NCBI GenBank assembly: GCA_024275165.1
Contig: JAJRZQ010000019.1
Location: 6,259 to 70,258 of the forward strand
DNA from: a bacterium
GTDB lineage: Bacteria; SAR324; XYD2-FULL-50-16
Length of the DNA stretch: 64,000 nucleotides
Direction of reading: 5' to 3'
The notes under the pieces are model-generated. The model had not been told where the DNA came from. It was given only the letters and a program-made list of their open reading frames with translations, and ran no database searches. Of the stretch, positions 11,981-51,838 are shown piece after piece. Positions within the stretch are counted from its first letter, which is position 1; every line of letters starts with the position of its first letter. A program made the translations under genes and the position numbers.

Positions 11981-11998
11981 AGGCCCTAAAATTAATTT

Positions 11999-13107: not shown

Positions 13108-13113
13108 GGGGCC

Positions 13114-33118: not shown

Positions 33119-33747
33119 ACCATAAAAGCCTTAAAATGATGGGTTCCTTAACCTTGATTTCCACAATTTCCGCCTTTTTGCTGCAAATGGTGGTGCTTTA
33201 TACCCAGCCCATCATCGCGAAGAATCAGGCCCTTTATCTAAAGCAGGCGATCTATGAAATCTTACCAAACACGGCTTCGGTGCAAGGCTACCGGCTCCAG
33301 GAGGGGCGGTTTATCCGCTCCGATTTACCCAACCCCTCTGTTTTTGCCGCTCTCGATGCCCAAAAAAAGACCCTCGCCTTTTTGTTCCAATGGCAAGGCC
33401 AAGGCTATCAGGAGTTGATGAAGATTTTGGTCGCCTATGACCCGGTTTCTAAAAAGCTGCAGGGGATTAAGGTATTAGAAAGTAAGGAGACCCCTGGCCT
33501 CGGGGAGCGCATTCTTACAGATCAAGCTTTTTTGGCTCAATTTCAAGGGCTCGCGATGCCCTTCAACCAAGAACGACAAGAACTGCGCCATCCCCTGCAA
33601 CTCGCGCTGCGAGGCAAGCCCAAACAACCGGGGCGGATCGACGGCATTACCGGGGCAACCATCAGCTCAAAGGCGGTGCTGCGCATTGTCAACCAAGGGG
33701 CGCGGTATTATTTTCCGCTCCTGCAAAAAACAGGAGGGGGGAAATAA
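33115..33747 (+). CDS. rnfG: Rnf complex subunit G
   Basis: RnfG is a single-helix membrane protein whose periplasmic domain carries covalent FMN. The 210 residues show an N-terminal helix (about 10-32) and the flavin-binding motif in GRIDGITGATISSKAV (about residue 180, Thr as the attachment residue). The VLESKETPGLGERI segment is also typical. The start overlaps rnfD (ATGA), and the stop lies one base before the rnfE start. Confidence 0.93.
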   Translation: MNHKSLKMMGSLTLISTISAFLLQMVVLYTQPIIAKNQALYLKQAIYEILPNTASVQGYRLQEGRFIRSDLPNPSVFAALDAQKKTLAFLFQWQGQGYQELMKILVAYDPVSKKLQGIKVLESKETPGLGERILTDQAFLAQFQGLAMPFNQERQELRHPLQLALRGKPKQPGRIDGITGATISSKAVLRIVNQGARYYFPLLQKTGGGK

Positions 33748-33748
33748 G

Positions 33749-34354
33749 ATGGAAAAGGAAGCTCCAAGCTTGGATTTAATCCTCAAGGGCTTGTGGAAAG
33801 AAAACCCGGTCTTTGTCCAACTTTTAGGGATGTGCCCTTTGCTGGCTGTTTCCAACTCCGTTAAAAACGCGCTTTCCATGGGGCTGGCGACGACCTTTGT
33901 TTTGGTCTTCTCCGCGGCATTGGTTTCTTTGCTCAAGCGCCTGATTCCCAAAGAGGTGCGGATGGGGTGTTATATTCTGATCATCGCAAGCTTCGTTACC
34001 ATTGCCGAATATGTGATGCAGGCCATTAGTTTGGAAATTCACCGCAGCTTGGGGGCTTTTACCTCCTTGATTGTGGTCAACTGCATTATTTTGGGTCAGG
34101 CCGAGTCTTTTTCCTCAAAACATAAATTATTGCCTTCGGTCGCGCACGCGCTGGGGCGGGGAGCGGGGTTTAGCTTGGCGATACTCTGCATGGGAATCAT
34201 TCGCGAGGTTGTCGGCAAGGGGAGCTTTTTTGAGATCCCTCTTTTTGGAGAGCAATACCAAGCCTGGACCCTGCTCATTTTGCCCAGTGGGGGTTTTTTT
34301 GTCTTGGCTTTGCTCTTGATGCTCTATGAAACTTTTTCCAAAGAGTCTGGATGA
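33749..34354 (+). CDS. rnfE: Rnf complex subunit E
   Basis: This integral membrane subunit has six helices over 201 residues. RnfA and RnfE form a pseudo-symmetric pair holding a [2Fe-2S] cluster within the membrane; the cysteines fit, in LLGMCPLLAVSNS (about residue 28) and VVNCIILGQAES (about residue 110). The start at 33749 is preceded by GGAGGGGG. The longer upstream frame is only overlap with rnfG. It overlaps rnfA by four bases. Confidence 0.93.
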   Translation: MEKEAPSLDLILKGLWKENPVFVQLLGMCPLLAVSNSVKNALSMGLATTFVLVFSAALVSLLKRLIPKEVRMGCYILIIASFVTIAEYVMQAISLEIHRSLGAFTSLIVVNCIILGQAESFSSKHKLLPSVAHALGRGAGFSLAILCMGIIREVVGKGSFFEIPLFGEQYQAWTLLILPSGGFFVLALLLMLYETFSKESG

Positions 34355-34932
34355 ATACCGACAGCCTGGGGTTTATTTTTCTCAGCAGTTTATTGATCAA
34401 TAACTTTGTGCTGAGTTATTTTTTGGGAATCTGCCCCTTTTTGGGAGTATCGGGCAAACTGGGTCGGGCGTTGAAAATGGGGTTTGCCGTTACCTTTGTC
34501 ATGCTGATCAGTTCGCTCTCAGCCACCTTGATTCATTCCCTTTTGGTTTGGCTGGACGCGCTTTTTTTGCAATTGATCGCCTTTATTTTGGTGATTGCTT
34601 CGGTGGTGCAGTTGGTAGAGATGGTGATTAAAAAGTATAGCCGAGCCCTGTTTGAATCCTTGGGCATCTTTTTACCTCTCATCACCACCAATTGCGCGAT
34701 TTTAGGGGTCGCCTTGTTCCAAACCGCCAGAGAATACAACCTGCTCCAATCCTTGATTTTTGCTTTGGGGGCCGGGTTGGGTTTTACCTTGGCCTTATTG
34801 ATCATGGCGGGCTTGCGAGAGCAATTGGGCTTGGCCAAGGTTCCCAATTTAATTCAGGGAACGGCCTTGACCTTGCTGGTGGCTGGCATTCTTTCCATGA
34901 GTTTTATGGGCTTTGCGGGGTTGGGGGGGTGA
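34351..34932 (+). CDS. rnfA: Rnf complex subunit A
   Basis: This six-helix membrane subunit of 193 residues is homologous to RnfE. The cluster cysteines are in FLGICPFLGVSG (about residue 27) and ITTNCAILGVALF (about residue 110). It is the last Rnf gene: all six (B, C, D, G, E, A) are now accounted for. A 69-base gap then separates it from korA, the largest gap in the operon. Confidence 0.94.
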   Translation: MNTDSLGFIFLSSLLINNFVLSYFLGICPFLGVSGKLGRALKMGFAVTFVMLISSLSATLIHSLLVWLDALFLQLIAFILVIASVVQLVEMVIKKYSRALFESLGIFLPLITTNCAILGVALFQTAREYNLLQSLIFALGAGLGFTLALLIMAGLREQLGLAKVPNLIQGTALTLLVAGILSMSFMGFAGLGG

Positions 34933-34942
34933 AAAAACGCAA

Positions 34943-34958
34943 ATTTTTATATAAAAAT
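34943..34958. promoter_or_regulatory. 16-bp perfect palindrome between rnfA and korA
   Basis: ATTTTTATATAAAAAT is a perfect palindrome in the only sizeable gap of the rnf-kor operon, 44 bases before the korA start. It has no GC stem, so it is not an ordinary terminator. It could be a protein-binding site or an internal promoter region, or just AT-rich DNA. Confidence 0.3.
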
Positions 34959-35001
34959 AGTATGAAATCAGGTATATATAAAGAAAAAATAAGGTGATTG
35001 A

Positions 35002-36843
35002 ATGAAGAAGCTACCGATTTCTCAACATATCTTAGAAATTGTCAGCGACGCAGGGGAAGGCGCGCAAAAGGCAGGCTCGATTTTCGCCCAGACCACGGCG
35101 AAAATGGGCAATTATTTATGGACGGTGGAACTGATTCCCTCAGAAATCCAACCGCCGCCCCATACCACTCGGAGTTCTTCGGGGATTCGGATTCGCTTCG
35201 GCTCCGAACCCATTACCAATGGGGGAAACCTGACCAACCTGATTTTTGTCTTTAATGAAATGTCGCTGCTCGCTCGCTTAGAAGCCCATGCCTTAGCAGA
35301 AGAGGTCATTGTTTTTATCGACAACCAATGGGCCAGCGACCCCAACCCCGACATCGTAAGGCAGTATCAGCAAATTCTGGCCGAGCTGAGCCAGCGCGGG
35401 GCCGACATTTATGAACTCGCCTTGAGCCAAGAGGTGGAACCCTTTACAGAAGACCCTCAAAAGGGGAAAAATATGTTTGTGCTGGGGGTGTTGGGTTTTT
35501 TATACCAACGAGATATCGACCTCTTGCAAGCCTGCGCGGCCAAGGCCTTTTCCCATAAATCAGCGCAAGTTTTAGCCAGCAACCGAGCTTTAATTCAAGC
35601 CGGTTACGCCTGGGGGCAGGGGCAGCTTGATTTTTGCTTTTCTATCCCTCTCCTCCCTCACGCGGCGCCCATGGTTACCTTGAATGGAAACCAGGCCTTG
35701 GCCTATGGGGCCATTGCCGCGGGCTTTGAACTCTGTTCCATGTACCCAATCACCCCTGCCAGTTCGGTTGCGCACACCTTGGCGAATATCTTTGAAGAAT
35801 TCGGCGGCATGGTGCATCAAGCCGAAGATGAAATTGCCGCCATTGGGGTGGCCTTAGGCGCCAATTACGCGGGCAAACCGGCCTTTACCGTTACCAGCGG
35901 CCCGGGGATGGCCTTAAAAACAGAGTTTATGGGCCTCGCGGTGATTACCGAGACCCCCTTGGTGGTGGTGGATGTGCAACGGGGAGGCCCCAGCACAGGC
36001 CTCCCCACCAAAATCGAGCAGGGGGATTTATTGAGCTCCCTTTTTGCCACCCCCGGCGACGCCCCTAAGGTCGTACTGGCGGCAAGCAGCATCGCGGATT
36101 GCTTCCACCTCATGAAAACCGCCCGCACCCTAGCAGAAGAGCTGCGAATTTTGGTGATTTTGCTCAGTGACAGCAACCTGGCCACGGGGATGCAGCTTTT
36201 TGAGCGCCCCGCGATCTCGGCGATTTCTTCTTCCCCGCCTCATGCCGCGGAAATGGAAAGCCTCCCCTACCATTGGGACAAGCTCACCGGAGTACCCCCT
36301 CGGCTGATTCCGGGGGTATCGCAAAAGGTGGGGATGACCAGCAGCTTAAATCATTCCGAAGCGGGTTTGGTGCGCTATGACAGCCTGGCCAACGAAGCCG
36401 CTCACCAGATGCGCAGCCATAAACTCGCTACCTTAAGAAAATGCCTCAAACCCCCTGCGGTACTGGGTGAAGAAGAGGGAGACCTGCTGCTGATCGGTTG
36501 GGGCAGCACCAAGGGGGCCATTGCCGAAGCCGTGCAGATTGCCAGGGGCAACGGGTTGAAGGTCTCTCATCTGCACTTGGTCTTTTTAAACCCCCTGCCT
36601 CCGAGGTTGAAGGAGATTGGCGCTGGTTTTAAAAAGATTGTAGTCGTGGAGTTAAACTATCAAGATGTACCCGGTGACCCCTATACCAAAGATGCCCCTC
36701 GCTTGAGTCAATTGGCCCTGTTGCTTCGCTCGCATACCCTGTTGCCCATAGAAAGTTTTGCCCGGGTGTGGGGGAGGGCCTTTATGCCGCAAGAGATTTT
36801 AACCCAAATTGAGCAAGAGATTTTAGCCTTAGAGGCCTCATGA
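35002..36843 (+). CDS. korA: 2-oxoacid:ferredoxin oxidoreductase, fused gamma-alpha subunit
   Basis: With KorB this enzyme oxidatively decarboxylates (or reductively carboxylates) a 2-oxoacid, probably 2-oxoglutarate, with CoA and ferredoxin. Residues 1-190 are the gamma domain (GEGAQKAGSIFAQ at the start); residues 225-610 are the alpha domain with MYPITPASSVAHTLA (about 250) and GPGMALKTEF. It is 613 residues long, the usual fused form. A Shine-Dalgarno sequence (AAGGTGA) lies just upstream. Its stop overlaps the korB ATG. Substrate choice (2-oxoglutarate versus a branched or aryl 2-oxoacid) cannot be settled by eye. Confidence 0.9.
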   Translation: MKKLPISQHILEIVSDAGEGAQKAGSIFAQTTAKMGNYLWTVELIPSEIQPPPHTTRSSSGIRIRFGSEPITNGGNLTNLIFVFNEMSLLARLEAHALAEEVIVFIDNQWASDPNPDIVRQYQQILAELSQRGADIYELALSQEVEPFTEDPQKGKNMFVLGVLGFLYQRDIDLLQACAAKAFSHKSAQVLASNRALIQAGYAWGQGQLDFCFSIPLLPHAAPMVTLNGNQALAYGAIAAGFELCSMYPITPASSVAHTLANIFEEFGGMVHQAEDEIAAIGVALGANYAGKPAFTVTSGPGMALKTEFMGLAVITETPLVVVDVQRGGPSTGLPTKIEQGDLLSSLFATPGDAPKVVLAASSIADCFHLMKTARTLAEELRILVILLSDSNLATGMQLFERPAISAISSSPPHAAEMESLPYHWDKLTGVPPRLIPGVSQKVGMTSSLNHSEAGLVRYDSLANEAAHQMRSHKLATLRKCLKPPAVLGEEEGDLLLIGWGSTKGAIAEAVQIARGNGLKVSHLHLVFLNPLPPRLKEIGAGFKKIVVVELNYQDVPGDPYTKDAPRLSQLALLLRSHTLLPIESFARVWGRAFMPQEILTQIEQEILALEAS

Positions 36844-37817
36844 AAACCCTGCATGTCGATCAATTTACCGCCGGCTATTGCCCCGAAGAGGCTGGTTTTA
36901 CCCTAGAGCGTTATGCGGGGGAGCAACCTCGTTGGTGCAAGGGTTGTGGTGATTACGCGATTCTTGTTGCCTTGGAAAAGCTTTTGGCCTTAAAAAAAAT
37001 CCCGTCCAATCAAGTGGTTTGCGTTTCGGGGATCGGTTGTTCCAGCCGCTTCCCCTATTATTTAAAAACCTTTGGCTTTCATGGGATCCATGGGCGGGCG
37101 CTCCCGATTTCCACAGGAGTCAAATTAGCCAATCCAAAGCTGACCGTGGTCACGGTGATGGGGGATGGGGATTGCTTTTCGATTGGCTTAGGCCATTGGA
37201 TGCACGCGGTGAGGTATAACCCCAATCTCTTGGTTTTGGTGTTGGATAATGAAATCTATGGGTTGACCAAACAACAAACCTCGCCCACCACGCCTTTAGG
37301 GACCAAGACCAAAACGACCCCCAAAGGGCCTTATATTCCCCCCCTAAACCCCTTAAAATTAATCATGGGGGCTACCGGGGTTAGTTTTGTAGCCCAAACA
37401 GCCACCTGGATGCCCGGCCATGTCAGCGCCACTTTGGCCAAGGGGATGGAGCATTCAGGTTTAAGCTTTATTCGGATTTTGCAGCGCTGCCCGATCTTTT
37501 CCCCCCAGGCATTTGGTCAGGGGGGGAAGGAGCGAGAGGGCTTTTGCTTTTTAACCCATGAACAAGGCATTTTGCTCGAAGATAACCTGCAAAATATGGC
37601 CGAAAGCCTGCCCCATGACCCAAGGGATTTTTCGGCGGCTCAAGCGCTGGTTCAGCAAACCGAAGACGCGGAAAAAGGTTTTACCCCCTTAGGGTTGATT
37701 TTCCAAGCCTTGAACCGACCAAGTTATGAAGAGGTTCGCTTTCGTTCAATAAGCCACCCCAGCCCGGAGGAAAAGGCGGAACTCCTGTTGGATAAACTGA
37801 AACCCTTTGAAATTTAA
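36840..37817 (+). CDS. korB: 2-oxoacid:ferredoxin oxidoreductase beta subunit
   Basis: This is the TPP-binding catalytic subunit, 325 residues. Cluster cysteines appear in RWCKGCGDYAIL (about residue 32) and SGIGCSSRFPYY (about residue 65). The TPP/Mg motif is MGDGDCFSIG (about residue 103) with downstream DNEIYGLTKQQTSPTT. It has no ferredoxin domain of its own; electrons may leave through the Cys clusters to a free ferredoxin or to the protein encoded next at 37822. Confidence 0.91.
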   Translation: MKTLHVDQFTAGYCPEEAGFTLERYAGEQPRWCKGCGDYAILVALEKLLALKKIPSNQVVCVSGIGCSSRFPYYLKTFGFHGIHGRALPISTGVKLANPKLTVVTVMGDGDCFSIGLGHWMHAVRYNPNLLVLVLDNEIYGLTKQQTSPTTPLGTKTKTTPKGPYIPPLNPLKLIMGATGVSFVAQTATWMPGHVSATLAKGMEHSGLSFIRILQRCPIFSPQAFGQGGKEREGFCFLTHEQGILLEDNLQNMAESLPHDPRDFSAAQALVQQTEDAEKGFTPLGLIFQALNRPSYEEVRFRSISHPSPEEKAELLLDKLKPFEI

Positions 37818-37821
37818 ACCT

Positions 37822-39342
37822 ATGGAAGATCAATTATGGAGCTGGCTCCAGGGGGAGGAATGGAAAAGCCCCTTATTTTTAGAGGTACAAGAAGCTTTAG
37901 GCATGGGCAAAGAGTTGGATTTGGCAGGCGAAGAGATCGACAGCGCTCAACTGACCCAAGCCCTGCACCCCTCCCAGAGCCAAGGCATGGAGCGCGAATC
38001 AAGTTGGAACCGGGTACTCAAGGCCCTGTCGGGGGCATTGGTTTTAAAGGGAGGGGGTGACCCGCAAGACTACTTTGCCGCCTATGACCAACATATGCGG
38101 TATGCCTTGCAAGCCTTGGCCTTGATTCGAGGAAAAGAGGCCCCAACAACCTGGCAAGAACTCAGCAACCGGGATTTCGCCTTTATCCCCCCGGTGATTC
38201 TTTATTTTCGTATTGATGAGCTCAACGACCCTGTTTTAAGACAACTCGGGGAGTTGATGAGGCAAGAGAGGGAGTTTAAGCTGATTCTTGTGCAGACTCA
38301 AATCCACGCTACTGTTTCGCGCCTGGGAAGAAGTGTAACCTTAAATCCCCATTGGGATGTGGGTTTTTGGGGGCTTTTTTTCCGCACTTATTTTGTGTTG
38401 CAGATTCCTGCGCATTTACCGGCCCTTAAAACAGAGGTTCAACGAGCGGTTTCAAGCCCTCGCCCGGCGTTGATCTCCATCTACGCCCCCGCTGATTTGG
38501 CTTTATCCGAGTTGGCCTTGCGGACCCGAGCCTTTCCCTATCTACGCTATGACCCTGAAGAGGGGCTTTGTTGGCAAGCAACCCTCGACCTGTCTTACAA
38601 CCCGGAGCCGCGACAATTGTGGGCGCTGGAGGCGAATCAAGAAGAATTAAATTTGGGGCACTTTCTTTTTCGGCAGAATCCATCTGCCTTTACCCCCTTT
38701 ATGGGTGATGGGGTTCCGGTGCGAGATTGGTTGGAGGCAGAGGGGACAAAACCGGTTTTTTTGTCCATGGACCAGCAAAAATGGACTCTCACCCCAACGC
38801 AACAAGAAAAAATTCTTTCCCAAATTCAGCTTTGGGGCAACCTTCAGGCCATGGCCGGGCAGGCAAAGGGGGGTGACCCCGGCCTTGTTGTGGACTGGGA
38901 AGAAAAAATAGACCTAGAACGCCAAAAAGCGGTGACCAAGGCACTGCAAACCTTGTCGGCTAAGCTTTTAGGGGTGACCTCGGTTGATTTTACGGGCTCG
39001 GAGTTGAAATTGAATTTGGGCTCCCATGGGGAGGAGACAAAAACAAAGAGGGAAAAGAGTCGCTTGGAGAAGCCCCTGCCCGTGGCGCAAAGCTCAGAAA
39101 CAGCCTGGATCGAAACCCCTCTATGCACCGCCTGTGATGAATGCACGGGGATCAATCCAAGAATTTTTGCCTATAATCAAGACAAACAAGCCTATGTCAA
39201 AGATCCGGCTGCCGGCCCCTACGCTGATTTGGTCAAGGCGGCGGAAAAGTGTTCCGCCTCGATTATTCATCCTGGGGCTCCCTTAAATCCAAAGGAGAAA
39301 AATTTAGAAAAATGGATCCAACGAGCCGCAAAACTCGGGTGA
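37822..39342 (+). CDS. PFOR C-terminal-like protein fused to a ferredoxin-type domain
   Basis: I do not know a named family for this 506-residue protein. ATG 37822 is preferred to the TTG at 37807. Its middle (about residues 215-260: RPALISIYAP, then RAFPYLRYDPEEG) matches by eye the segment after the TPP domain of the nifJ product (RPALFNLYCT, then RAYPYFVYDPDLG), including the following Asp-rich stretch. It lacks the TPP motifs and a pyruvate-binding domain. The C-terminus (about residues 430-490) is ferredoxin-like: CTACDECTGINPRIF with a later KCSASIIHPG. It follows korB by four bases, so it may be an electron-transfer or regulatory subunit of KorAB. Confidence 0.75.
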   Translation: MEDQLWSWLQGEEWKSPLFLEVQEALGMGKELDLAGEEIDSAQLTQALHPSQSQGMERESSWNRVLKALSGALVLKGGGDPQDYFAAYDQHMRYALQALALIRGKEAPTTWQELSNRDFAFIPPVILYFRIDELNDPVLRQLGELMRQEREFKLILVQTQIHATVSRLGRSVTLNPHWDVGFWGLFFRTYFVLQIPAHLPALKTEVQRAVSSPRPALISIYAPADLALSELALRTRAFPYLRYDPEEGLCWQATLDLSYNPEPRQLWALEANQEELNLGHFLFRQNPSAFTPFMGDGVPVRDWLEAEGTKPVFLSMDQQKWTLTPTQQEKILSQIQLWGNLQAMAGQAKGGDPGLVVDWEEKIDLERQKAVTKALQTLSAKLLGVTSVDFTGSELKLNLGSHGEETKTKREKSRLEKPLPVAQSSETAWIETPLCTACDECTGINPRIFAYNQDKQAYVKDPAAGPYADLVKAAEKCSASIIHPGAPLNPKEKNLEKWIQRAAKLG

Positions 39343-39652
39343 TTGAGTTGGTCGGCGCAAGCATAGGGAATGATTTTTTTTGCAAAAAATCATTAAAAAA
39401 AAGGAGTGTTATTTTTTAGCTATAACCCTTGATTCCCTATGGTCAGCCTGGAAAAAACTCGGATGCGTACAAGATTTGCCCTCTTTGATTTTTTTTAGGA
39501 AGCGTTGCTGAAGGGGCTTTTTCACAATTCATTTATATATTGACTATATGACCAGTCGTCTTTAGAATTGCGTACAATGAGTGATTTTATGTTTTTGCAG
39601 CGGTTCGCTTTTGAACCAGCCATAAACTTCATTCTACTCCTCTAGGATTTTT
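39343..39652 (+). other. Intergenic region before the ergothioneine-type cassette
   Basis: No gene is visible. An AT-only hairpin (AATGATTTTTT / AAAAAATCATT, about 39369-39394) lies soon after the operon end and might be a weak terminator. A strong sigma-70-like promoter sits at 39540-39568 and GACT...AGTC half-sites overlap it. The rest shows nothing recognisable. Confidence 0.5.
39540..39568 (+). promoter_or_regulatory. Sigma-70-type promoter of the cassette
   Basis: TTGACT (39540-39545), a 17-base spacer and TAGAAT (39563-39568) are close to the consensus. It lies about 85 bases before the ATG at 39653 and points at the Fe-S/FMN protein, the molybdopterin-desulfurase fusion and egtD. Confidence 0.65.
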
Positions 39653-41839
39653 ATGCCTGTGATCCGTTGTCTAAAAAATGGCCCCTATCAAGTTGAAGAC
39701 TTGCCCCGTCTGAGGGATCCACAAAAAAACGAGCTTGCGACCCCTCAAAAAATCATGCTGTGCCGCTGCGGCAAATCAAAGAGCAAACCCACTTGCGACG
39801 GCACCCACCAAGAAGTCGGGTTTACCTCAAATAAGGAAACCGCTGGAGAATGGAACTACCGCGGCAATTATGCGGGAAAAAACATAACGATTCACGATAA
39901 CCGTGGGATTTGCTCCCACGCGGGCTATTGCACCTCTGGTTTGCCGCAGGTTTTTTTACAAGGGGTGGAACCCTGGATTCAACCCGATCAGGCCACGCTA
40001 AAAGAGGTTTCCGAAACCATTGATCAATGCCCTTCGGGTGCCTTAAGCTATTCGATTCAGGGGGTTGAGCAGCGAGATCGGTCGCAAGAACCGGAGATAT
40101 CCATCTCCCTCAACGGCCCCTATGAGGTAAAGGGTGGCCTTGAACTCGACTTAGGGGGGGAGCCATGGGGCGAAGGCGCGAGCCAGGAACATTATACCCT
40201 GTGCCGTTGCGGTGCCAGTAAAAACAAACCTTTTTGCGATGGAAGTCATTGGCACGCAAAGTTTCGCGATGATGATAAAATCCGCATTGCCATGCCCGCC
40301 GAGATCAAAGCAGGGCTCAACTCCGTTGAGGCCGAGGGGGTTGAACTGATCGTGCTTCGTTTTGGTGATGAGTTTAAGGTTTTTTCCGGTACCTGTCTGC
40401 ACCAGGGGGCAAAACTCGGTGAAGGCATTTTAGAAGAAGGCAAAGTCGTTTGCCCTGCTCATGGTTGGGCCTATGACGCTCAAACCGGCTGTTTGGAGGG
40501 GGAAGACGCGCAATGCCTTTCCAAACTCGAATGCTGGGTCGAACCCTGGGATTTACTGGTCGAGAGGTCGGCCCTCGCGGCCTTGTCGGGCGCGGGCCTG
40601 CCTAAGCCCGTTCCCACCGAGGAAGAGCCCTATGTTGCCTTGATTCACCAACTCGCTGAAAAGGGCTTGGAGCATAGTCATGGGCCTGTGGTGGCCATGG
40701 GGGTTCCGCGCTCTCAACTGCCCGATTGGAATGATTTACAATTGCTCGCGGCCCAACTGCACCGTTTTCCCTTGCTTGACGAGGAGCCGATTCATACCCA
40801 GACTGTCATTGGGCCTTCTGCGAAAAAGCCGCTTCAGCTCGACATCCCTATTTTTGTTTCGGACATGAGTTTCGGGGCGTTGAGCTTTGAGGCAAAAACC
40901 GCCTTGGCTCAAGGGGCTAACGCCGCTGGAACGGGGATTTGTTCCGGGGAAGGGGGGATGCTGGCAGAAGAGCAGGCGGTAAACCAACGCTATTTTTATG
41001 AATTCGCCTCGGGGCGTTTTGGCTTTGATTGGGAAAAGGTAAAAAAGTGTCAAGCCTTTCATTTTAAGGGGGGGCAAGGGGCAAAAACAGGAGTGGGCGG
41101 CCACCTCCCCGGGAGCAAGGTCACGGGGAAAATCGCGGAAACCAGAGGCCTGGCAGTGGGGCAAGACGCGATCAGTCCGGCCCGTTTTCCAGAATTTACC
41201 TCGCTCCAGGATTTTAAATCCTTAGCGAATGAAGTTCGGGAAAAAACCGGGGGGATTCCCATTGGCTTTAAATTATCGGCCCAGCATGTGGAAAAAGACC
41301 TTGCCGCTGCTTTGGAAATCGGAGTAGATTATGTGATTCTCGATGGTCGCGGCGGGGGGACGGGAGCGGCGCCCGATGTGGTTCGAGATCATATTTCGGT
41401 TCCCCTGATGGCGGCTCTGCCCCGGGCCAGGAAATTCTTAGATGAAGCAGGCAGAACCGATATCACTCTGGTGGGAACCGGTGGTTTGCGCCTTCCCGCT
41501 GATTTTGTGAAAGCCTTGGCTTTAGGGGCCGACGCGGTCGCGATCAGTAATTCGGCGATGCAAGCCATTGGCTGCCTTGGCGCGAGAATTTGCCATACCA
41601 ACCAATGCCCTGCCGGAATCGCCACCCAAGACCCGGTTTTGCGCCGTCGTTTGGATGTGGAGCGGGCCGCGGCTCGTCTGGCCCGATTTTTTACCGCTTC
41701 GACTCAATTGATGTGCGTTTTGGCTCGCGCTTGCGGTCATTCCAGGTTAAGCGATTTTCAGCCCTCTGACTTAACCAGTTGGAAAGAAGAAATCGCCCGC
41801 TTGGCTCGGGTTTCTTATGCTGGCGACTCAAAGCTTTAA
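39653..41839 (+). CDS. CDGSH-Fer4-CDGSH-Rieske-glutamate-synthase-like redox fusion protein
   Basis: 728 residues with five redox modules in a row. (1) CDGSH-type [2Fe-2S] motif, LCRCGKSKSKPTCDGTH (residues 36-52). (2) Divergent one-cluster ferredoxin domain with CSHAGYC and QCPSGAL (about 85-130). (3) Second CDGSH motif, LCRCGASKNKPFCDGSH (about 183). (4) Rieske domain, CLHQGAKLG and CPAHGWAYD (about 247-270). (5) FMN-binding domain of the glutamate-synthase type (about 350-710) with GGQGAKTGVGGH and a C-x5-C-x4-C 3Fe-4S motif (CLGARICHTNQC, about 640). No glutaminase domain is present, so it is not ordinary GltB. It is first in an operon, 18 bases before the molybdopterin fusion, and so a likely electron donor or acceptor for it. 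Confidence 0.85.
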   Translation: MPVIRCLKNGPYQVEDLPRLRDPQKNELATPQKIMLCRCGKSKSKPTCDGTHQEVGFTSNKETAGEWNYRGNYAGKNITIHDNRGICSHAGYCTSGLPQVFLQGVEPWIQPDQATLKEVSETIDQCPSGALSYSIQGVEQRDRSQEPEISISLNGPYEVKGGLELDLGGEPWGEGASQEHYTLCRCGASKNKPFCDGSHWHAKFRDDDKIRIAMPAEIKAGLNSVEAEGVELIVLRFGDEFKVFSGTCLHQGAKLGEGILEEGKVVCPAHGWAYDAQTGCLEGEDAQCLSKLECWVEPWDLLVERSALAALSGAGLPKPVPTEEEPYVALIHQLAEKGLEHSHGPVVAMGVPRSQLPDWNDLQLLAAQLHRFPLLDEEPIHTQTVIGPSAKKPLQLDIPIFVSDMSFGALSFEAKTALAQGANAAGTGICSGEGGMLAEEQAVNQRYFYEFASGRFGFDWEKVKKCQAFHFKGGQGAKTGVGGHLPGSKVTGKIAETRGLAVGQDAISPARFPEFTSLQDFKSLANEVREKTGGIPIGFKLSAQHVEKDLAAALEIGVDYVILDGRGGGTGAAPDVVRDHISVPLMAALPRARKFLDEAGRTDITLVGTGGLRLPADFVKALALGADAVAISNSAMQAIGCLGARICHTNQCPAGIATQDPVLRRRLDVERAAARLARFFTASTQLMCVLARACGHSRLSDFQPSDLTSWKEEIARLARVSYAGDSKL

Positions 41840-41857
41840 TTCGGGCGGAGCGCGTTT

Positions 41858-44800
41858 ATGAATCAACCAAAAAAGATTTCTTCCCAATCCAATTCGGGTT
41901 TTGTCAAAAGCATTTGCGGTATTTGCCCCGCTGGTTGTTGGGTAGAGGCGCGCTTAGACGCAAAGGGAAAGCTGAGCGAGGTTCGGGCTGACCCGGATTC
42001 AAGTTTTGGGACTATCTGCCACTTAGGTGAAGCGAGTACCGAGATCGTCTACGCTAAAGACCGCATCCAAACCCCGCTGAAGCGGGTCGGCCCCAAGGGG
42101 AGTTTTCAGTTTGAGCCCATCACTTGGGATGAGGCAATGGAACTCATTGCCCAAAAACAATTGGATTTTAAAGAGCAATATGGGCCGGAGTCCCTGGCTA
42201 TCTACACCGGCAGGGGGAGCTTTGATTTAAGTCTCTGCGATGTTTACCAACCTGCCGGGGTTGCCGTTTCCTCTGCCGCCTCGGTGCTTTTTCCTCTTGG
42301 CAGCCCCAATACTTTAGGTGTAGGGGCGCTCTGTTATGTTTCCTTTGCCATGATCGCCCCTCATGTGACCTTGGGCGGCATGCTCACCAACATGTATTCG
42401 GATATTGAACAGGCTGAAATCGTGGTGATTTGGGGCGCGAATCCCGCCACCGACAGCCCTCCTTTGGATTACCAGCGCATCACCGATGCCCATGCCCGAG
42501 GGGCAAAGATCATTGTCATTGACCCCAGGGAAACCGCCCTGGCTCGATTAAAAAATGCCCAATGGGTGCCGACTCGACCGGGTACCGACGGGGCCTTGGC
42601 TTTAGGCTTGTGCCAGGTGATCATCGCCGAAGAACTATATGACGAGGGCTTTGTCAAAGACTGGACTTTAGGTTTTGATGAATTTGACAGCTATGCGCAG
42701 CATTTTCGCCCCGAAGTGGTGGAAAATATTACGGGCGTCCCGGCAGAGGTGGTGGTTGAACTGGCCAGGGAAATCAGCGCGGCAAAAGGGGCGGCCCCGG
42801 TGATGTATTCCGGTTTGGAATATAGTGAGTCTGGGGTGCAGGCGATTCGGGCAACCTTGGTTTTATGGGGCCTGGCAGGGCAGTTGGATGTTCCTGGCGG
42901 GCGTTGTTTTACCATGCGGCAAAATCATTTTCAGGTCAATCGGGATGGCTTGGTGGCCAATCCTTGCCCGGATAAAGCCTTGGGGCGGGATCGTTTTCCC
43001 GTTTACAGCCACTACCGGGGAGAGTCGCACGCGATCAGCCTTCCCGAGTCCGTTTTGGATGCCAAACCCTACCGGATTCGCAGCCTCATTATTTTAGGCG
43101 GGAGCATCATCACCTCTTGGCCGGAACCAAAAAAATGGCGCAAAACCCTAGAAAATCTAGATTTTTTAGTCACCATTGATCGGCAATTAACCGCGGATTC
43201 AGCCTATGCCGATATCGTGCTTCCGGCCACCACGGGGTATGAAATCGACAGTTACATGGTTTATGGCCCTATATTTAAGATTCGTGAACGCTTGATTGAG
43301 CCGGTCGGCTTGGCGAGGAATGATTTTTTTATTTTGGCTGATTTGGCAAAGCGCTTAGGCTATGGACACCTTTACCCCCAAAGCAAAGAAGAGTTGTATG
43401 CCTATGTATTGAAGGGAACAGGCTACAGCTATGAGCAGGTGAAGGCCAACCAAAACCAGGTGAGCCTGCAAACCCAGATGATGGAATATAAAAAATGGGA
43501 AAAAGGTGGCCTGCGGGCCGATGGAAAGCCTGGTTTTGATACGCCCAGCGGCAAGCTGGAAATCGCCTCCAGCTTATTGGAAGAATATGGTTATAATCCG
43601 CTTACTGTTTACACCGAGCCCGCCGAATCGCCGCTCTCGCGGCCTGATTTAGCCAAGGAGTTCCCCTTAGTGTTTAATTCCGGCGCCAGGGTAACCACCG
43701 ATTTTCGCAGTCAGCACCATGGGGTTGCCAGTTTATCGAAGGTTCAGCCTGAACCGGTCGTGACCTTAAATAACAAAGATGCCGCTGCCAGAGGGATTGA
43801 AGAAGGCTCTTGGGTTGAGGTGAAAAGCCCCCGCGGCGCGGTCGCCATGCGGGCTTATGTGACCGAGAGAATCGTCCCCGGAGCCATTGATGCCAATATG
43901 GGCGGTGGTGGCCCCATCGGCCCCAAGGCATGGCAAGAAAACAACATCAATGAATTGACGAATTTGTCTCAGTTTGACCCCATTTCGGGGTTTCCCGTTT
44001 ACAAGGCTTTGCTCTGTGATGTATTGCCTTTACAGGGGGATAAGCGCGCGACCCAGAGTGGAGAATACACAGCGCCCCAAACCCAACACAAAGCCGTAAC
44101 GCGTCGGGTTTATTTTGACCACAACGCCACCAGCCCGCTCGCCCGCTCGGTGAAAGAGGCCATGATTGCCCACTTGGATGATTTTGGAAATCCAAGCAGC
44201 ATCTACAGTGAGGGGAAAAAAATCAGGGCCCTGCTGGATCAAGCAAAACGCCATTTGGGGCAGTTGCTCAACTGTACGGCAAAACGCCTGATTGTGACTT
44301 CTGGCGGTTCCGAGGCCAACAACCTCGCGTTGAAGGGATTGTTGCATTTGCGTGGCAAGCGCAACCGCTTGATTACCAGTCAATTTGAACATCCTTCCAT
44401 ATTAAAGGCCTGCCGACAATTAGAGGCCCAAGGCATTGAGGTCACCTATTTGCCCGTGAGCAGCCAGGGAGTGGTTACGCCCCAGGCCTTGACCGATGCC
44501 CTTGATGATGATTGTTTTGGAGTCAGTATTATGCTGGCGAATAATGAAGTGGGGAGCCTGCAACCTATCGCGGAATTGGCTGAAATCGCTCACCAAAACG
44601 GGGCTTGGTTTCACTGCGACGCGGTGCAGGCCGTGGGGAAAATTCCCTTAGATCTAACTCAATTGCCCGTGGACGCCTTGAGTTTGTCGGCCCATAAATT
44701 CCACGGCCCCAAGGGGGTCGGGGCCTTGTTCCTACGCAAGGGGTTCGAGTTGGAACCCTTGATCGCCGGTGGCGCACAAGAGTACGGGGTGCGCGGGGGC

Positions 44801-45253
44801 ACGGAAAACAGCCTGGCCTTGATCGGTTTGGGTAAGGCGGCTGAAGAGGCGGTTAAGAACTTAGCTCAATTTGCCCAGGTGGCCCAACTCCGAGATCAAT
44901 TAGAACAGGGGATTGTAACCCAAGTTCCCGGGGCGGTGATCAACGCCGCAGGGGCAAACCGCTTGCCCCACTGCACGAATATCACCCTACCCCAAACTCG
45001 GGGGGAATCGCTGGTCTTAGCCTTAGACCAACGGGGTTTTGCCTTGAGTTCTGGTTCCGCCTGTCAATCGGGCAGCCCGAAACCTTCTCACTGCCTCTTG
45101 GCTTTAGGCTTGAGCGAAGCCCAAGCGCACTGCTCGATTCGCTTAAGCCTTGGCATTGAAAACACAAAAGAAGAGGTTGAATTGTTTTTAAAGTCCCTGC
45201 AAGAGTTGTTTGCCGGATCCGCCCAGTTGATTCGTTTTGTTCCCTGTCGCTAA
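41858..45253 (+). CDS. Molybdopterin oxidoreductase fused to cysteine desulfurase; probable metallopterin-dependent ergothioneine synthase
   Basis: 1131 residues. Residues 1-740 form a DMSO-reductase-family molybdopterin domain: [4Fe-4S] motif CGICPAGC plus a fourth Cys (TICHLGEAS), bis-MGD segments, and a Cys in GVGALCYVSF that could bind the metal. Residues 750-1131 are a class-V cysteine desulfurase: YFDHNATSPL, PLP lysine in SLSAHKFHGPKG (about 946), catalytic Cys in SSGSACQSG (about 1069). As I recall, this same fusion was described as the metallopterin-dependent ergothioneine synthase of Caldithrix abyssi, which turns hercynine into ergothioneine with sulfur from cysteine. The next gene, egtD, makes hercynine. 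The stop lies 15 bases before the egtD ATG. Confidence 0.85.
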   Translation: MNQPKKISSQSNSGFVKSICGICPAGCWVEARLDAKGKLSEVRADPDSSFGTICHLGEASTEIVYAKDRIQTPLKRVGPKGSFQFEPITWDEAMELIAQKQLDFKEQYGPESLAIYTGRGSFDLSLCDVYQPAGVAVSSAASVLFPLGSPNTLGVGALCYVSFAMIAPHVTLGGMLTNMYSDIEQAEIVVIWGANPATDSPPLDYQRITDAHARGAKIIVIDPRETALARLKNAQWVPTRPGTDGALALGLCQVIIAEELYDEGFVKDWTLGFDEFDSYAQHFRPEVVENITGVPAEVVVELAREISAAKGAAPVMYSGLEYSESGVQAIRATLVLWGLAGQLDVPGGRCFTMRQNHFQVNRDGLVANPCPDKALGRDRFPVYSHYRGESHAISLPESVLDAKPYRIRSLIILGGSIITSWPEPKKWRKTLENLDFLVTIDRQLTADSAYADIVLPATTGYEIDSYMVYGPIFKIRERLIEPVGLARNDFFILADLAKRLGYGHLYPQSKEELYAYVLKGTGYSYEQVKANQNQVSLQTQMMEYKKWEKGGLRADGKPGFDTPSGKLEIASSLLEEYGYNPLTVYTEPAESPLSRPDLAKEFPLVFNSGARVTTDFRSQHHGVASLSKVQPEPVVTLNNKDAAARGIEEGSWVEVKSPRGAVAMRAYVTERIVPGAIDANMGGGGPIGPKAWQENNINELTNLSQFDPISGFPVYKALLCDVLPLQGDKRATQSGEYTAPQTQHKAVTRRVYFDHNATSPLARSVKEAMIAHLDDFGNPSSIYSEGKKIRALLDQAKRHLGQLLNCTAKRLIVTSGGSEANNLALKGLLHLRGKRNRLITSQFEHPSILKACRQLEAQGIEVTYLPVSSQGVVTPQALTDALDDDCFGVSIMLANNEVGSLQPIAELAEIAHQNGAWFHCDAVQAVGKIPLDLTQLPVDALSLSAHKFHGPKGVGALFLRKGFELEPLIAGGAQEYGVRGGTENSLALIGLGKAAEEAVKNLAQFAQVAQLRDQLEQGIVTQVPGAVINAAGANRLPHCTNITLPQTRGESLVLALDQRGFALSSGSACQSGSPKPSHCLLALGLSEAQAHCSIRLSLGIENTKEEVELFLKSLQELFAGSAQLIRFVPCR

Positions 45254-45268
45254 TGAGTGAGAAAAAAT

Positions 45269-46255
45269 ATGAATTTATTTAACCAACCGATTACCTTAGA
45301 AAACCACCTCCACCTAGACTTCAGTCAGGAGTTGAAAGAAGATATCCGCCGGGGCTTATTGGCCAAGCAAAAACGCATCCCCAGCAAATACTTTTATGAT
45401 GATCAGGGTTCGCAACTCTTTGAAGAAATTTGCAAAACACCCGAATACTATGTGACCCGCACTGAATTGGAATTGCTCGAATCCATTGCCGAAGACTTGA
45501 TGCAGGGGTTTCAGGAGGGGGATTTGGTGGAGCTGGGTTCCGGTGCCCATTGGAAGATTCAGCGCTTGTTGGAGGCGACGGATTCCGCCCAGCGCCAACG
45601 ATTGCGCTATCTCCCGATTGATGTGAGTCAAGAGGCCATTCGGGTCTCTTCCCAGGCCTTGCAGCGGAGGTTTCCTGATTTGGCTATTCATGGTCATATT
45701 GCTGATTTTACAGGTAATTTAATCGGTTTAAAGCAAAGCCGACCCTTGATGATGATTCTTTTTGGCAGTTCAATCGGTAATTTTGAATTTGACGAGGCGA
45801 GGGATTTCCTTCGCAGAGTGACCGCGGACCTTACACAAGAGGATCGCTTTTTATTGTCCGTGGACCGGGTGAAGCCTGCTTCGGTTTTACATGCCGCGTA
45901 CAATGATCAAGCGGGGGTGACCGCGGCGTTTAATAAAAATGTTCTTACGGTACTCAATCGCCAGCTCGAGGCGGATTTTGTTTTGGAGGATTTCGCTCAT
46001 AAGGCTTTTTTCAACCTCGAGGCCGAGCGGGTCGAGATGCATTTAGTCGCCCAACGCCCCTTGCGTGCCCGGGTGAAGCATCTTGATATGGAATTTGAAT
46101 TTGCGGAGGGTGAAAGCATTCACACCGAGATCTCTCAAAAATACTCAAAAGAGTCTGCCTTGGCTTTGGTTCAGGCAGCAGGCCTGCAATTAGTGCGATG
46201 GTATCATGCCCAAGATGAATGGTTTTCAATCATGGAACTGCAAAAAGCCAATTGA
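45269..46255 (+). CDS. egtD: L-histidine N-alpha-methyltransferase
   Basis: EgtD trimethylates histidine with three S-adenosylmethionine to hercynine, the first step of ergothioneine synthesis. The 328 residues match the family: KYFYDDQGSQLFEEICKTPEYYVTRTE (about residues 40-65), SAM-binding ELGSGAHWK (about 90), FGSSIGNF (about 165) and late HAAYNDQAGVTAAFN. The start could also be GTG 45257, four codons earlier. Its TGA stop abuts the repeat at 46257. The gene for the iron-dependent EgtB sulfoxide synthase is absent, consistent with the molybdopterin route. Confidence 0.93.
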   Translation: MNLFNQPITLENHLHLDFSQELKEDIRRGLLAKQKRIPSKYFYDDQGSQLFEEICKTPEYYVTRTELELLESIAEDLMQGFQEGDLVELGSGAHWKIQRLLEATDSAQRQRLRYLPIDVSQEAIRVSSQALQRRFPDLAIHGHIADFTGNLIGLKQSRPLMMILFGSSIGNFEFDEARDFLRRVTADLTQEDRFLLSVDRVKPASVLHAAYNDQAGVTAAFNKNVLTVLNRQLEADFVLEDFAHKAFFNLEAERVEMHLVAQRPLRARVKHLDMEFEFAEGESIHTEISQKYSKESALALVQAAGLQLVRWYHAQDEWFSIMELQKAN

Positions 46256-46876: not shown

Positions 46877-49800
46877 ATGTCACAACAAGATACTTGGAGG
46901 GAACTCTCCATAGGCCAAAAGTCCTTTTTCTTTTTCTACCAAGCCTACCCCGAAGCCCCGGTATACAATGTCAGCTATTTTTGGACGGTTGAAGGGGAGT
47001 TGGACCCTGATCGTTTAGGGGATTGCCTAGCGCAAATCATTGAAAAGCATGAGGTGTTGCGTACTACCTTTCACCTCAAATCGGGCCAACCCATGGGCCA
47101 GGTTCGTAGTGACCTTCCCCTCCCTTTTTGCGTACAGGAAGTTGGTGATTGGACTCCAAGCCAGCTGGAGCAATGGCGACAGCAAGAAAACCGAACCCCC
47201 TTCGACCTCTCCAGCGAGGTGCCCTGGCGTTGGAATTGTCTGTTGCAAAAAGGGAAAGCTCTTTGGCTATCGGTAACCTGGCACCATATCTGCAATGACC
47301 TGTGGTCTCATATGCTTTTGATGAGGGAGTTAAAACACCTCTATGGCGGACTCGACCCCTTTAGCCCAGAGCGGCCCTTTTACGAGGCCGTGGAGCAGAA
47401 AAAAAAATGGCTTGAGGGGCCCCGGGCCGCCAAGCAGCTCGCCTATTGGCAGGAAAGGCTTGTAGACGCTCCCCCCCTGGAAATGCCCTGTGACCAACCC
47501 TTAAGCGGTGTCCCCCGTTTTGAGGTCGGCCGCCTGCAAGAGGAGGTACCGCCACCCATTGCTCAGCGACTCGCGGAGTTGGCCCAAGAAGCGAAAACCA
47601 GTGAGTTCACCCTGTATCTTTCTTTGCTTCAGCTTTTGTTGCATCGCTATTCGGGGCAGGAGCGGTTTTTTGTTGGCGCGCCCATGGCGGGGCGCAGCGG
47701 GGATGCCTTTGCCCATACCGTTGGCTACTTTGTGAATATTATCGCTTATGAAGCGGATTTTTCCGGTCAACTTAGTTTTTTACAGTTTTTAGATATCCAG
47801 CACCAACAGGTGCGCCAGAGCCTGCGGCGCAAGGATTACCCCTTTTTTCTCTTGCTCAAGCAGTTGGGGTCTCGTCGGGATTTGCAGCGTCCCGGGGTTT
47901 TTCAAGTTGCCTTTGGCTGGGAAGAACCCAATTCCTTTTTATCTCCTCAAGCTCCAATGGTCAGCCAGGAATACGGTCAACGAGAAACCTGGGATTTAGG
48001 AAGTTTCAAGCTCCGTTTAACTGCCAAGTGGCAGGTTACCGAGTTTGATTTGGTCTTGCGTATCGCCAACAACACCAATAATCTGAAGATAGATTTAGAA
48101 TACAATCGCCAACTCTTTAGTCCTCAGCTGGCTGAGGACCTCTTGACCAGTTTTCAAGTGCTGCTGAGCGAGGTCGCTCAGGAGGCGAACCGCCCCCTTT
48201 CCAGCCTGCCTTTGCTTTCTTCAGAGCAGAGGCACCGCTTGGTAAATCAATGGGGCAAGGGGCCTGGTCAGCGTTGTGATTTTGGTTCTTTTGTGGGGCT
48301 GGTCACAGATTGGGCAACAAAACAACCCAGGGCTCCGGCATTGGAAATGGAAGGTCAGGTGATGAGTTATCAAGAGTTGGATCACCGTTCCAATCAATTG
48401 GCCCGTTATCTGCGCCAAGAGGGGGTAAAGAGGGGAGAAATCATTGGGCTTTATACCCAACCCGCCTTAGAGCGAATTGTCGCCCTGTTGGCGATTCAAA
48501 AGGCAGGGGCCGCCTATTTGCCCTTGGACCCGAGTTACCCTTGGGATCGTTTGGAATTCATGATGAAAGATACCCAGCTCAATTGGGTTGTGGGTCTGGA
48601 AGGGATGGAGGTCTTGGGTCAAGGGGTCAAGACCTTCAATGTCAAGGAGAAGTCGGCCCAGTGGCGGAGTTGCTCTGGAAAACCTTTGCAAAACCAGGTA
48701 GGGCCGTCAGACTTAGCTTATGTAATCTATACTTCCGGTTCCACGGGGGAGCCAAAAGGCGTTTTGTTGGAGCATCAAGGGCTGGTTAATTTAGTTTGCT
48801 CCCTGCGAGGGATTTATCAAATTCAGCCCCTGAGTCGCGTTTTGCAATTGGGCAGTCTCAATTTCGATATTTCTCTTTTTGAAATCGCCTTAGCTCTGGG
48901 TTCAGGGGCTTGCCTCGTGCTGGCCGCCAGGGAAAAGCTCTGGCCGGGGCCGGGCTTGGTCGAGCTTTTGGCAGAGCAGAGGGTCTCTCATCTTTTTATC
49001 ACCCCTTCCAGCCTGGCCGCGCTGCCTCATGGAGAGTTGCCCCATTTGAAGGCGATTATCGCGGGAGGGGAGGCCTGTTCACATGGCTTGGTCGCCCAGT
49101 GGGGCAAGGGGAGGCGTTTTTTTAATGCCTATGGGCCTACGGAAATCACCATTGCGGCCACGACCGCGGAAGTGAGCCCAGAAGATGAAACGGTTCCCCT
49201 AGGCCGCCCCTTAGCCAATCTGAATCTGTTGGTTTTGGATCAAGTCGGGAACTTAGCCCCTCCGGGGGCTACCGGGGAGCTGTACATCGGTGGGCCCGGG
49301 TTGGCCCGAGGTTACCTCAACCAAGCGGATTTGACCGGACGCCGTTTTGTTCCCTCACCGCTGGATCCCAAACAACGGCTTTATCAGACCGGCGATTTGG
49401 TGCGTTACCGTTTTGACGGCCAATTGTTGTACCTAGGCCGGGCAGACCGACAGATCAAGATTCGGGGTTTTCGGGTGGAGCCCGGTGAAATCGAGGTGCG
49501 ACTTTTGCGGTACCCGGGAATCAAACAGGTCAAGGTCATCGACAATCCGCCCAATAGCCAATTGGTGGCCTACTATCTGCCCCAAGGGGTCGCGCCCAGT
49601 GCCGCTAAACTCAAAGACTTCTTGAGCGAACAATTGCCCCCTCAATTGGTTCCTTCGGGTTTTGTCGCGCTGACCGCCTTTCCCTTGACCGCCAATGGAA
49701 AGCTGGATGTCCTTCGCCTGCCCCTACCTTACGCGGAGGCGCAAGCTGAGGCGGAAAGCTCACCCGCCTTAGAGGGGCAAGGTGGCCGGGCAAAGGTGGC

Positions 49801-51832
49801 TCAGATTTGGAAAAAGGTTTTGGGGCATGGGAATTTTGGTCTCCAAGACAACTTTTTCGATGTGGGGGGCGACTCGCTGCTTTTGGTTCAATTGCATCAT
49901 TTTCTTGGGGAATGGACAGAAGAACCAATTCAGTTGATGGATCTCTTTAAAAATCCCACCATTGAACGCCTTGCCGAGCTGATAGGGGGAGGCCCCTTGG
50001 AGGCGCAAACTCGGAGCGAGGCAAAGACCTGGCAGGGGGAAGAAATCGCGGTGATCGGCATGGCGGGGCGTTTTCCCGGCGCGGCCAACCTCGATGAACT
50101 GTGGGAACTCTTGTCCCATGGCAAGGAGGGGATTCGCCGCTTTTCCTTAGAGGAATTGCGTCAAGCGGGGCTGGAACCAGAGTCACTGGACCACAAAGAT
50201 TATGTGCCCTCTTTAGGTTGGTTGGAAGGGGTCGAGTTTTTTGACGCCCCCTTTTTTGGTTACTCTCCCATTGAAGCGAAAAGCATCGACCCCCAGCAAC
50301 GGATTTTTTTAGAGACCGCTTGGCACGCCTTGGAAGACGCGGGCTGCGACCCAGATCAATTTAAAGATTCGATTGGGGTTTTTGGCGGTTGTGGGTCGAG
50401 TGGCTATTACCGAAATCATCTCGCCCCCAATGAGAGCTTATTGGAGCAGTTGGGCAGTGTTCAGGTGGCGCTGGGCAATGAAAAGGATTTTCTCTGTAGT
50501 CGAGTGGCTTATAAACTCAACCTCACCGGGCCGGCAATGACGGTTCAAAGCGCTTGTTCCACTTCCTTGGTGGCGATTCACCAAGCTTGCCGCTCTTTGT
50601 TGAAAAACGAATGCGAACTCGCTTTGGCAGGGGGAGCGTCGGTGATTGACCCGATCAAGACGGGGTACCGCTATCAAGCAGGCGGGATTTTATCTCCCGA
50701 TGGTCATTGCCGCCCCTTTGACGAAAAGGCCCAGGGTACCGTTCCCGGTCAGGGGGTCGCTTTGGTCGCCTTAATGCGCCTGGAGCGAGCCTTGGCCGAA
50801 GGCTACCCCGTCCGTGCAGTGATCAAGGGTTCGGCGATCAATAACGACGGTTCGGACAAAATGGGTTTTACCACCCCGGGAATCAAGGGGCAGGCTCAGG
50901 CCTTGCGCTCTGCCTTAGAGGCCTCTGGGCTTTTGCCCGGTGAAGTGGGTTTGATTGAGGCGCATGGAACCGCGACAATTTTGGGCGACCCGGTGGAAAT
51001 GGCCGCCATCAGTGAAGTTTACGGGGATCGCGGCCCCAGAGGCGAAGCTTGTTTTGTCGGCTCCATCAAAGGCAACTTGGGGCATTTGGATAGCGCGGCC
51101 GGGGTGACGGGGGTGATTAAGGCGGTGCTGGCTCTAGAAAAACAAGTGATTCCGGGAACCCTAAATTTTCAACGGCCAAACCCCAACATCAAGCTGGAGG
51201 ACCGGGTCTTTCGCTTTAGTGGTCAAGCGGTGCCTTGGCCCAGCAAGGGGGCTTTGCGTCGGGCGGCGGTCAGCTCTTTCGGGTTGGGGGGGACCAACGC
51301 CCATTTGATTTTGGAAGAGGCCCCGAGGCCCCAGGAATCCCCACCTCCACAACCGCCGCCCCATCTCTTGGTTTTATCGGCAAAAAGCCAGGTCGCCTTG
51401 CTGCAAAAGGGCAAGGACTTGTCTCATGCCCTTCAGGCTCAGCCTGAGCTTGATTTGGCTTTGGTGGCCCAGACTTTGGCGCGGGGGCGCAAGGTTTTTG
51501 CTTATCGCGGTTCTTTGGTGGTCGAAGATTCCAAGGAAGCGATTGCTCGCTTGGAAGAGCTGAGCTTGATGGATGAACTTCCCCCTGCCAACCCTGTGGG
51601 GCCGGTTTTTTTGTTTCCCGGGCAGGGGACGCAATATGCGGATATGGGTCGGCAGCTCTATGGGCGCTTTCCCCTCTATAAAAAAAATCTGGATTATTGT
51701 GCCGAAGTCTTTGCCGATTTAACGGGGAGCGACTTTCGCAAAGACCTCTTTCCCAGCAAGGCAAATCGAGGTTCCGCTTCGGAGAGGTTGAGCCAGGTTT
51801 GGTTGACCCAGCCCGTACTCTTTGCCACGTAA
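46877..51832 (+). CDS. Hybrid NRPS-PKS, C-A-PCP-KS-AT(N) portion, ended by an in-frame TAA
   Basis: A megasynthase that activates one amino acid and extends it once with malonate. Order: condensation domain (1-430; WHHICNDLWSH); adenylation (470-940; YTSGSTGEPKGV near 617, FNAYGPTE near 749, TANGKLD near 936); carrier (FFDVGGDSLLL near 993); ketosynthase (1055-1480; VQSACSTSL near 1224, EAHGTA near 1360, GNLGHLDSAAG near 1398); and the start of the acyltransferase (FLFPGQGTQYADMG near 1576). The frame stops at TAA 51830 within QPVLFAT. A tentative ten-residue code read by eye is DIFFIGAIA(K); it starts with Asp, expected for an alpha-amino acid. No ketoreductase, dehydratase or tailoring gene adjoins. 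Strong Shine-Dalgarno at 46867. Confidence 0.9.
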   Translation: MSQQDTWRELSIGQKSFFFFYQAYPEAPVYNVSYFWTVEGELDPDRLGDCLAQIIEKHEVLRTTFHLKSGQPMGQVRSDLPLPFCVQEVGDWTPSQLEQWRQQENRTPFDLSSEVPWRWNCLLQKGKALWLSVTWHHICNDLWSHMLLMRELKHLYGGLDPFSPERPFYEAVEQKKKWLEGPRAAKQLAYWQERLVDAPPLEMPCDQPLSGVPRFEVGRLQEEVPPPIAQRLAELAQEAKTSEFTLYLSLLQLLLHRYSGQERFFVGAPMAGRSGDAFAHTVGYFVNIIAYEADFSGQLSFLQFLDIQHQQVRQSLRRKDYPFFLLLKQLGSRRDLQRPGVFQVAFGWEEPNSFLSPQAPMVSQEYGQRETWDLGSFKLRLTAKWQVTEFDLVLRIANNTNNLKIDLEYNRQLFSPQLAEDLLTSFQVLLSEVAQEANRPLSSLPLLSSEQRHRLVNQWGKGPGQRCDFGSFVGLVTDWATKQPRAPALEMEGQVMSYQELDHRSNQLARYLRQEGVKRGEIIGLYTQPALERIVALLAIQKAGAAYLPLDPSYPWDRLEFMMKDTQLNWVVGLEGMEVLGQGVKTFNVKEKSAQWRSCSGKPLQNQVGPSDLAYVIYTSGSTGEPKGVLLEHQGLVNLVCSLRGIYQIQPLSRVLQLGSLNFDISLFEIALALGSGACLVLAAREKLWPGPGLVELLAEQRVSHLFITPSSLAALPHGELPHLKAIIAGGEACSHGLVAQWGKGRRFFNAYGPTEITIAATTAEVSPEDETVPLGRPLANLNLLVLDQVGNLAPPGATGELYIGGPGLARGYLNQADLTGRRFVPSPLDPKQRLYQTGDLVRYRFDGQLLYLGRADRQIKIRGFRVEPGEIEVRLLRYPGIKQVKVIDNPPNSQLVAYYLPQGVAPSAAKLKDFLSEQLPPQLVPSGFVALTAFPLTANGKLDVLRLPLPYAEAQAEAESSPALEGQGGRAKVAQIWKKVLGHGNFGLQDNFFDVGGDSLLLVQLHHFLGEWTEEPIQLMDLFKNPTIERLAELIGGGPLEAQTRSEAKTWQGEEIAVIGMAGRFPGAANLDELWELLSHGKEGIRRFSLEELRQAGLEPESLDHKDYVPSLGWLEGVEFFDAPFFGYSPIEAKSIDPQQRIFLETAWHALEDAGCDPDQFKDSIGVFGGCGSSGYYRNHLAPNESLLEQLGSVQVALGNEKDFLCSRVAYKLNLTGPAMTVQSACSTSLVAIHQACRSLLKNECELALAGGASVIDPIKTGYRYQAGGILSPDGHCRPFDEKAQGTVPGQGVALVALMRLERALAEGYPVRAVIKGSAINNDGSDKMGFTTPGIKGQAQALRSALEASGLLPGEVGLIEAHGTATILGDPVEMAAISEVYGDRGPRGEACFVGSIKGNLGHLDSAAGVTGVIKAVLALEKQVIPGTLNFQRPNPNIKLEDRVFRFSGQAVPWPSKGALRRAAVSSFGLGGTNAHLILEEAPRPQESPPPQPPPHLLVLSAKSQVALLQKGKDLSHALQAQPELDLALVAQTLARGRKVFAYRGSLVVEDSKEAIARLEELSLMDELPPANPVGPVFLFPGQGTQYADMGRQLYGRFPLYKKNLDYCAEVFADLTGSDFRKDLFPSKANRGSASERLSQVWLTQPVLFAT
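51830..51832 (+). other. In-frame TAA inside the acyltransferase domain
   Basis: The context reads QPVLFAT-stop-YALARLW. Acyltransferase domains of this class have a strongly conserved Glu here (a -EYALARLW pattern), so GAA to TAA is the simplest change. Frame and length are otherwise intact. Confidence 0.87.
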
Positions 51833-51838
51833 TACGCT

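Follow-up and report, generated by a model that had tools for sequence, protein, structure and literature searches.

Two genes in a three-gene bacterial cassette, encoding the methyltransferase EgtD and a metallopterin-dependent ergothioneine synthase (MES), would together make ergothioneine without O2, in a host that probably respires O2, while the third gene, for a 728-residue redox protein, would be a lineage-specific neighbour. We consider this combined reading very likely, judging from the sequence and by analogy with a published enzyme. The cassette occupies positions 39653-46255 of a 64,000-nucleotide stretch of DNA (hereafter the window) from a bacterium of the SAR324 lineage. The route itself has been published; the new part is the host range of MES, which a specialist would not expect. 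MES turns up in genomes that encode O2 reductases and for the most part lack EgtB, which breaks the stated link to anaerobes and raises the question of why an O2-capable cell would retain an O2-independent synthase.

The cassette and its synthase

The cassette contains three intact open reading frames, all on the + strand and separated by gaps of only 18 and 3 bases. The first (39653-41839, +) was assigned from its reading frame, Pfam matches and motifs as a 728-residue CDGSH-Fer4_19-CDGSH-Rieske-GltS/FMN redox protein, and it ends 18 bases upstream of the MES gene (41858-45253, +), whose 1131-residue product was recognised from its domains, residues, tree position and structure model. EgtD follows (45257-46255, +; 332 residues), the L-histidine N-alpha-methyltransferase that makes hercynine (TMH), with a Methyltransf_33 domain and a match to the TIGR03438 equivalog model of 346 bits (cut-off 291). 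An initial annotation had described a molybdopterin enzyme fused to a cysteine desulfurase directly before egtD, with which the reading frames and the Pfam and NCBIfam matches agree. It had also placed a near-consensus promoter upstream, and a promoter-like site (TTGACT-17-TAGAAT, a 10/12 match) does occur at 39540-39568 (+). However, this is weak evidence, as the scanned region contains 5 such sites compared to 5.9 ± 2.4 in shuffled sequences, and the site is therefore not above chance. The cassette has the same composition as its surroundings in the window, and the window in turn resembles other contigs of the 98%-complete, 47-contig source genome (tetranucleotide r 0.97); by this measure, the cassette did not arrive by recent foreign insertion, nor is its contig mis-binned.

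Pfam identifies Molybdop_Fe4S4, Molybdopterin, Molydop_binding and Aminotran_5 (cysteine desulfurase) domains in the 1131-residue protein. These form two modules in one chain, with a bis-MGD module (approximately residues 1-722) fused N-terminally to the desulfurase (approximately residues 748-1131). The [4Fe-4S] cysteines (C20, C23, C27 and C54) and the metal ligand C159 are found at equivalent positions in the alignment, and the PLP lysine K947, the persulfide cysteine C1069, C1092 and C1130 align with the MES of Caldithrix abyssi, with C1130 being the penultimate residue as in that enzyme. The other full-length MES likewise keep counterparts of K947, C1069, C1130, C159 and the four N-terminal cysteines. 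In C. abyssi MES, mutants of C153, K952, C1074 and C1135 are dead, while the conserved C1097 is only mildly important (PMC9516567). The initial annotation had pointed to a C. abyssi fusion of this design that makes ergothioneine from hercynine and cysteine, and this matches the published enzyme, with all essential residues present in the window's protein. By its sequence, the window's fusion belongs fully within the published MES family. Compared to C. abyssi MES and its homologues (PMC9516567), it shares the order of the fusion, the essential residues, the egtD partner and the absence of EgtB, but the window's host encodes O2 reductases and has the additional 728-residue protein gene upstream, whereas the published hosts are described as strictly anaerobic.

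The structure model compares best with acetylene hydratase joined to NifS/IscS. Among solved structures, acetylene hydratase (PDB 2E7Z) is nearest to the N-terminal module; its metal-ligand cysteine aligns with C159 and its [4Fe-4S] site also aligns, although the identity is approximately 26% and acetylene hydratase has no fused desulfurase. The persulfide loop and the C-terminal tail are modelled at low confidence, and the geometry of the relay is not readable from the model. A second O2-independent enzyme, the rhodanese-type EanB, also inserts sulfur into hercynine and has an egtD-type partner, but it is an unrelated protein without a metallopterin, and it uses polysulfide where MES uses cysteine (PMC9516567 and a review).

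For the chemistry, including the persulfide relay, we extrapolate from C. abyssi MES. EgtD would trimethylate histidine to hercynine, and the desulfurase half of MES would take sulfur from L-cysteine, using PLP on K947. The sulfur would then travel as a persulfide, first on C1069 and next on C1130 in the flexible C-terminal tail, to reach the Mo/W-bis-MGD site that C159 holds, and would pass from there to C2 of the imidazole. The predicted net reaction converts cysteine and hercynine into alanine and ergothioneine, with no net electrons. Four MES enzymes yield ergothioneine in E. coli, where MES suffices alone (PMC9516567). The window's genome also encodes MoaA, as well as a NasC-type molybdopterin enzyme that we identified by eye from its sequence.

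The absence of EgtB, which the initial annotation had noted, holds throughout the 98%-complete genome, where the EgtB model matches best to two proteins that have an FGE-sulfatase domain only, with 72 and 64 bits, far under the cut-off of 360. The genome's three FGE-sulfatase proteins were considered as EgtB candidates and rejected; one was scanned directly, two are those at 72 and 64 bits, and the third was unmatched.

The MES family and its unfused relatives

Among the 383 genomes surveyed, 12 contain MES (including the window's genome), and another three have unfused relatives but no MES. All 12 MES form one clade in a maximum-likelihood (ML) tree (support 100/99), separate from the respiratory-type enzymes that were included. 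Two possibilities that would have weakened the initial annotation, that the fusion is absent elsewhere or that its molybdopterin domain belongs among respiratory enzymes, were not borne out by the survey and the tree. The window's MES groups with two MES of its own phylum, from genomes G041 (76-77% identical, the closest) and G001. When the genome contigs were queried with the single protein, the matches were stand-alone desulfurases and other molybdopterin enzymes but no MES, and the plasmids searched likewise yielded none. Within the phylum of G258, a broader look for MES covered five genomes. The MES of G109 was considered as C. abyssi MES itself, but the spacing between its metal-ligand and persulfide cysteines is 916 residues, compared to 921 in the C. 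abyssi enzyme, and hence it is a different protein. In G198 (L091, contig C61), the MES gene is in two pieces in different frames, broken at approximately residue 815 by a frameshift or an assembly error.

EgtD occurs in 10/12 MES genomes and adjoins MES in eight of them (the window's genome, G001, G057, G075, G109, G168, G198 and G258); in the remaining two, which lack EgtD, the contig breaks off within the MES gene. EgtB is absent from 10 of the 12, including the window's genome. G188 (L167) and G226 (L166) have MES plus an EgtB-type gene beside egtD, and thus both the O2-dependent and the O2-independent route in one genome, showing that MES is not always the route served by egtD.

The unfused MES-like enzymes are the sister group of MES in the ML tree. 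One of these (L093; positions 9635-11818 of contig C18 in G023) is 49% identical, retains the metal-ligand cysteine and sits in a complete histidine-utilisation cluster, with HutH, HutU and a GntR/UTRA regulator, then HutI and HutF (5174-9389 and 11925-14542). It is without 13 residues that are invariant in MES and may, from its sequence, remove sulfur or catalyse another reaction on imidazoles. Three more unfused enzymes (L092, L094 and L095, from G031 and from G099, which has two copies) are 47-49% identical, and no hut genes were seen beside them. These unfused relatives, one of them in a histidine-utilisation cluster, are candidate catalysts of new metallopterin-dependent reactions of imidazoles.

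Such relatives, together with the reversible sulfur transfer of the published molybdopterin module (PMC9516567), might suggest that the window's fusion uses a different imidazole or heterocycle as its substrate, or chiefly strips sulfur in the reverse direction, and is no ergothioneine synthase. However, we consider this very unlikely given the adjacent EgtD, the fused desulfurase with its complete relay, and the 13 residues that all MES share and the unfused group lacks.

Oxygen reductases in MES genomes

MES has been stated to be exclusive to anaerobes, with strictly anaerobic hosts (Beliaeva and Seebeck 2022, PMC9516567). The window's genome encodes two heme-copper O2 reductases. One includes an A-type COX1 bearing HPEVY, with COX3-like genes, and shares its contig with rpoB and rpoC; the second has a CuA subunit II. 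The COX1 cut-off was passed by 9/12 MES genomes, including the window's, and a motif check identified A-type (HPEVY or HPAVY) or cbb3-type (WWYGHNAV) oxidases in G000, G001, G041, G168, G188, G198, G226, G258 and G287. Of the ten MES genomes that lack EgtB, seven encode an oxidase. With heme-copper oxidases in nine of the 12 genomes, the published anaerobe-only statement fails for this sample. Strictly anaerobic hosts are not what we observe; that description concerns the distribution of MES and does not define the enzyme.

In G226 (100% complete, 1% contamination), one contig holds both MES (C10:37262-40618) and, around 21 kb away at approximately C10:62 kb, a caa3-type oxidase cluster. This removes binning as an explanation for this genome; such linkage within one contig was seen only in G226. 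An oxidase gene represents the capacity to use O2, and is not proof of MES working under O2. The initial annotation had called the cassette oxygen-independent, which describes the chemistry correctly. The host, however, with its two heme-copper O2 reductases, is not an evident anaerobe and can probably respire O2. As it also lacks EgtB, MES would be its only recognised route to ergothioneine, EgtB and MES being the routes looked for.

The 728-residue redox protein and the cassette's surroundings

The five modules that the initial annotation had assigned to the 728-residue protein were all matched by Pfam and motif searches, in the order CDGSH, Fer4_19, CDGSH, Rieske and a GltS-type FMN domain with C-x5-C-x4-C, and all cluster-binding motifs are present. 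No GATase (glutaminase) domain, by which a glutamate synthase would be recognised, is among its Pfam matches. The protein had been proposed to recycle electrons for the sulfur insertion, but this proposal is not supported. Cysteine supplies S0 via the persulfide, making MES redox-neutral on paper, so electron recycling meets no known need; MES also works alone in E. coli, and the gene is found at no other MES.

The 728-residue protein gene is beside none of the other MES loci, including that of the closest MES (G041), where a divergent cytochrome c gene is found upstream, and relatives of the protein (E<=1e-60) are absent from the genomes of G001, G041 and G057. Co-occurrence of MES and the core family of this protein is weak (2/11 vs 10/371, p ~0.04, with one count being a partial match). 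The 728-residue protein is best read as a lineage-specific neighbour, and no core part of the pathway.

We think it likely that the gene is next to MES by chance and encodes a stand-alone 'glutamate synthase-related' FMN/Fe-S oxidoreductase of nitrogen or redox metabolism. Its Rieske-FMN core is common to 'glutamate synthase-related' FMN proteins with Rieske or CDGSH domains, occurring at approximately 57% identity in around 12 of the 383 genomes, with unrelated neighbours and no common pathway, as well as on haloarchaeal and Vibrio plasmids. The Fe-S modules ahead of the FMN domain differ between these relatives, and the combination of CDGSH and Glu_synthase domains has already been described. 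None of these proteins in the 383 genomes was seen to have the full CDGSH-Fer4_19-CDGSH-Rieske front end, and none is beside MES. The very short gap to MES speaks against a chance neighbour, as it suggests co-transcription in the window's genome.

This 18-base gap on the same strand, together with the complete cluster-binding motifs, would instead fit a dedicated partner that keeps the metal or Fe-S sites of MES reduced, or reduces ergothioneine disulfide, in a cell exposed to O2. EgtD is also found in 9/13 genomes with the core family, a raw count that serves as a lead. In G186 (L141, 1195-7402), a DsbA-like gene and a CDGSH2-GltS/FMN relative of the 728-residue protein lie within approximately 2 kb of an EgtB-EgtD pair. 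However, a dedicated partner seems rather unlikely to us given the weak co-occurrence, the activity of MES alone in E. coli, and the lack of the gene beside every other MES, even that of the 76% identical relative, and in G001, G041 and G057. If the protein has a role here, the most plausible one would be as a reductant or repair partner for Mo/Fe-S sites. It is unlikely that O2-respiring bacteria have MES as their sole ergothioneine route with the 728-residue protein added here to protect or reactivate an O2-sensitive metallopterin site.

Directly upstream of the cassette (32096-39342), the window contains Rnf-type genes, followed by genes for the alpha and beta subunits of a 2-oxoacid:acceptor oxidoreductase and a ferredoxin-domain protein. 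Right after the cassette (46877-53878) is an NRPS-PKS hybrid gene with an in-frame TAA (51830-51832) in its acyltransferase domain, and the reading frame is open on both sides of this codon.
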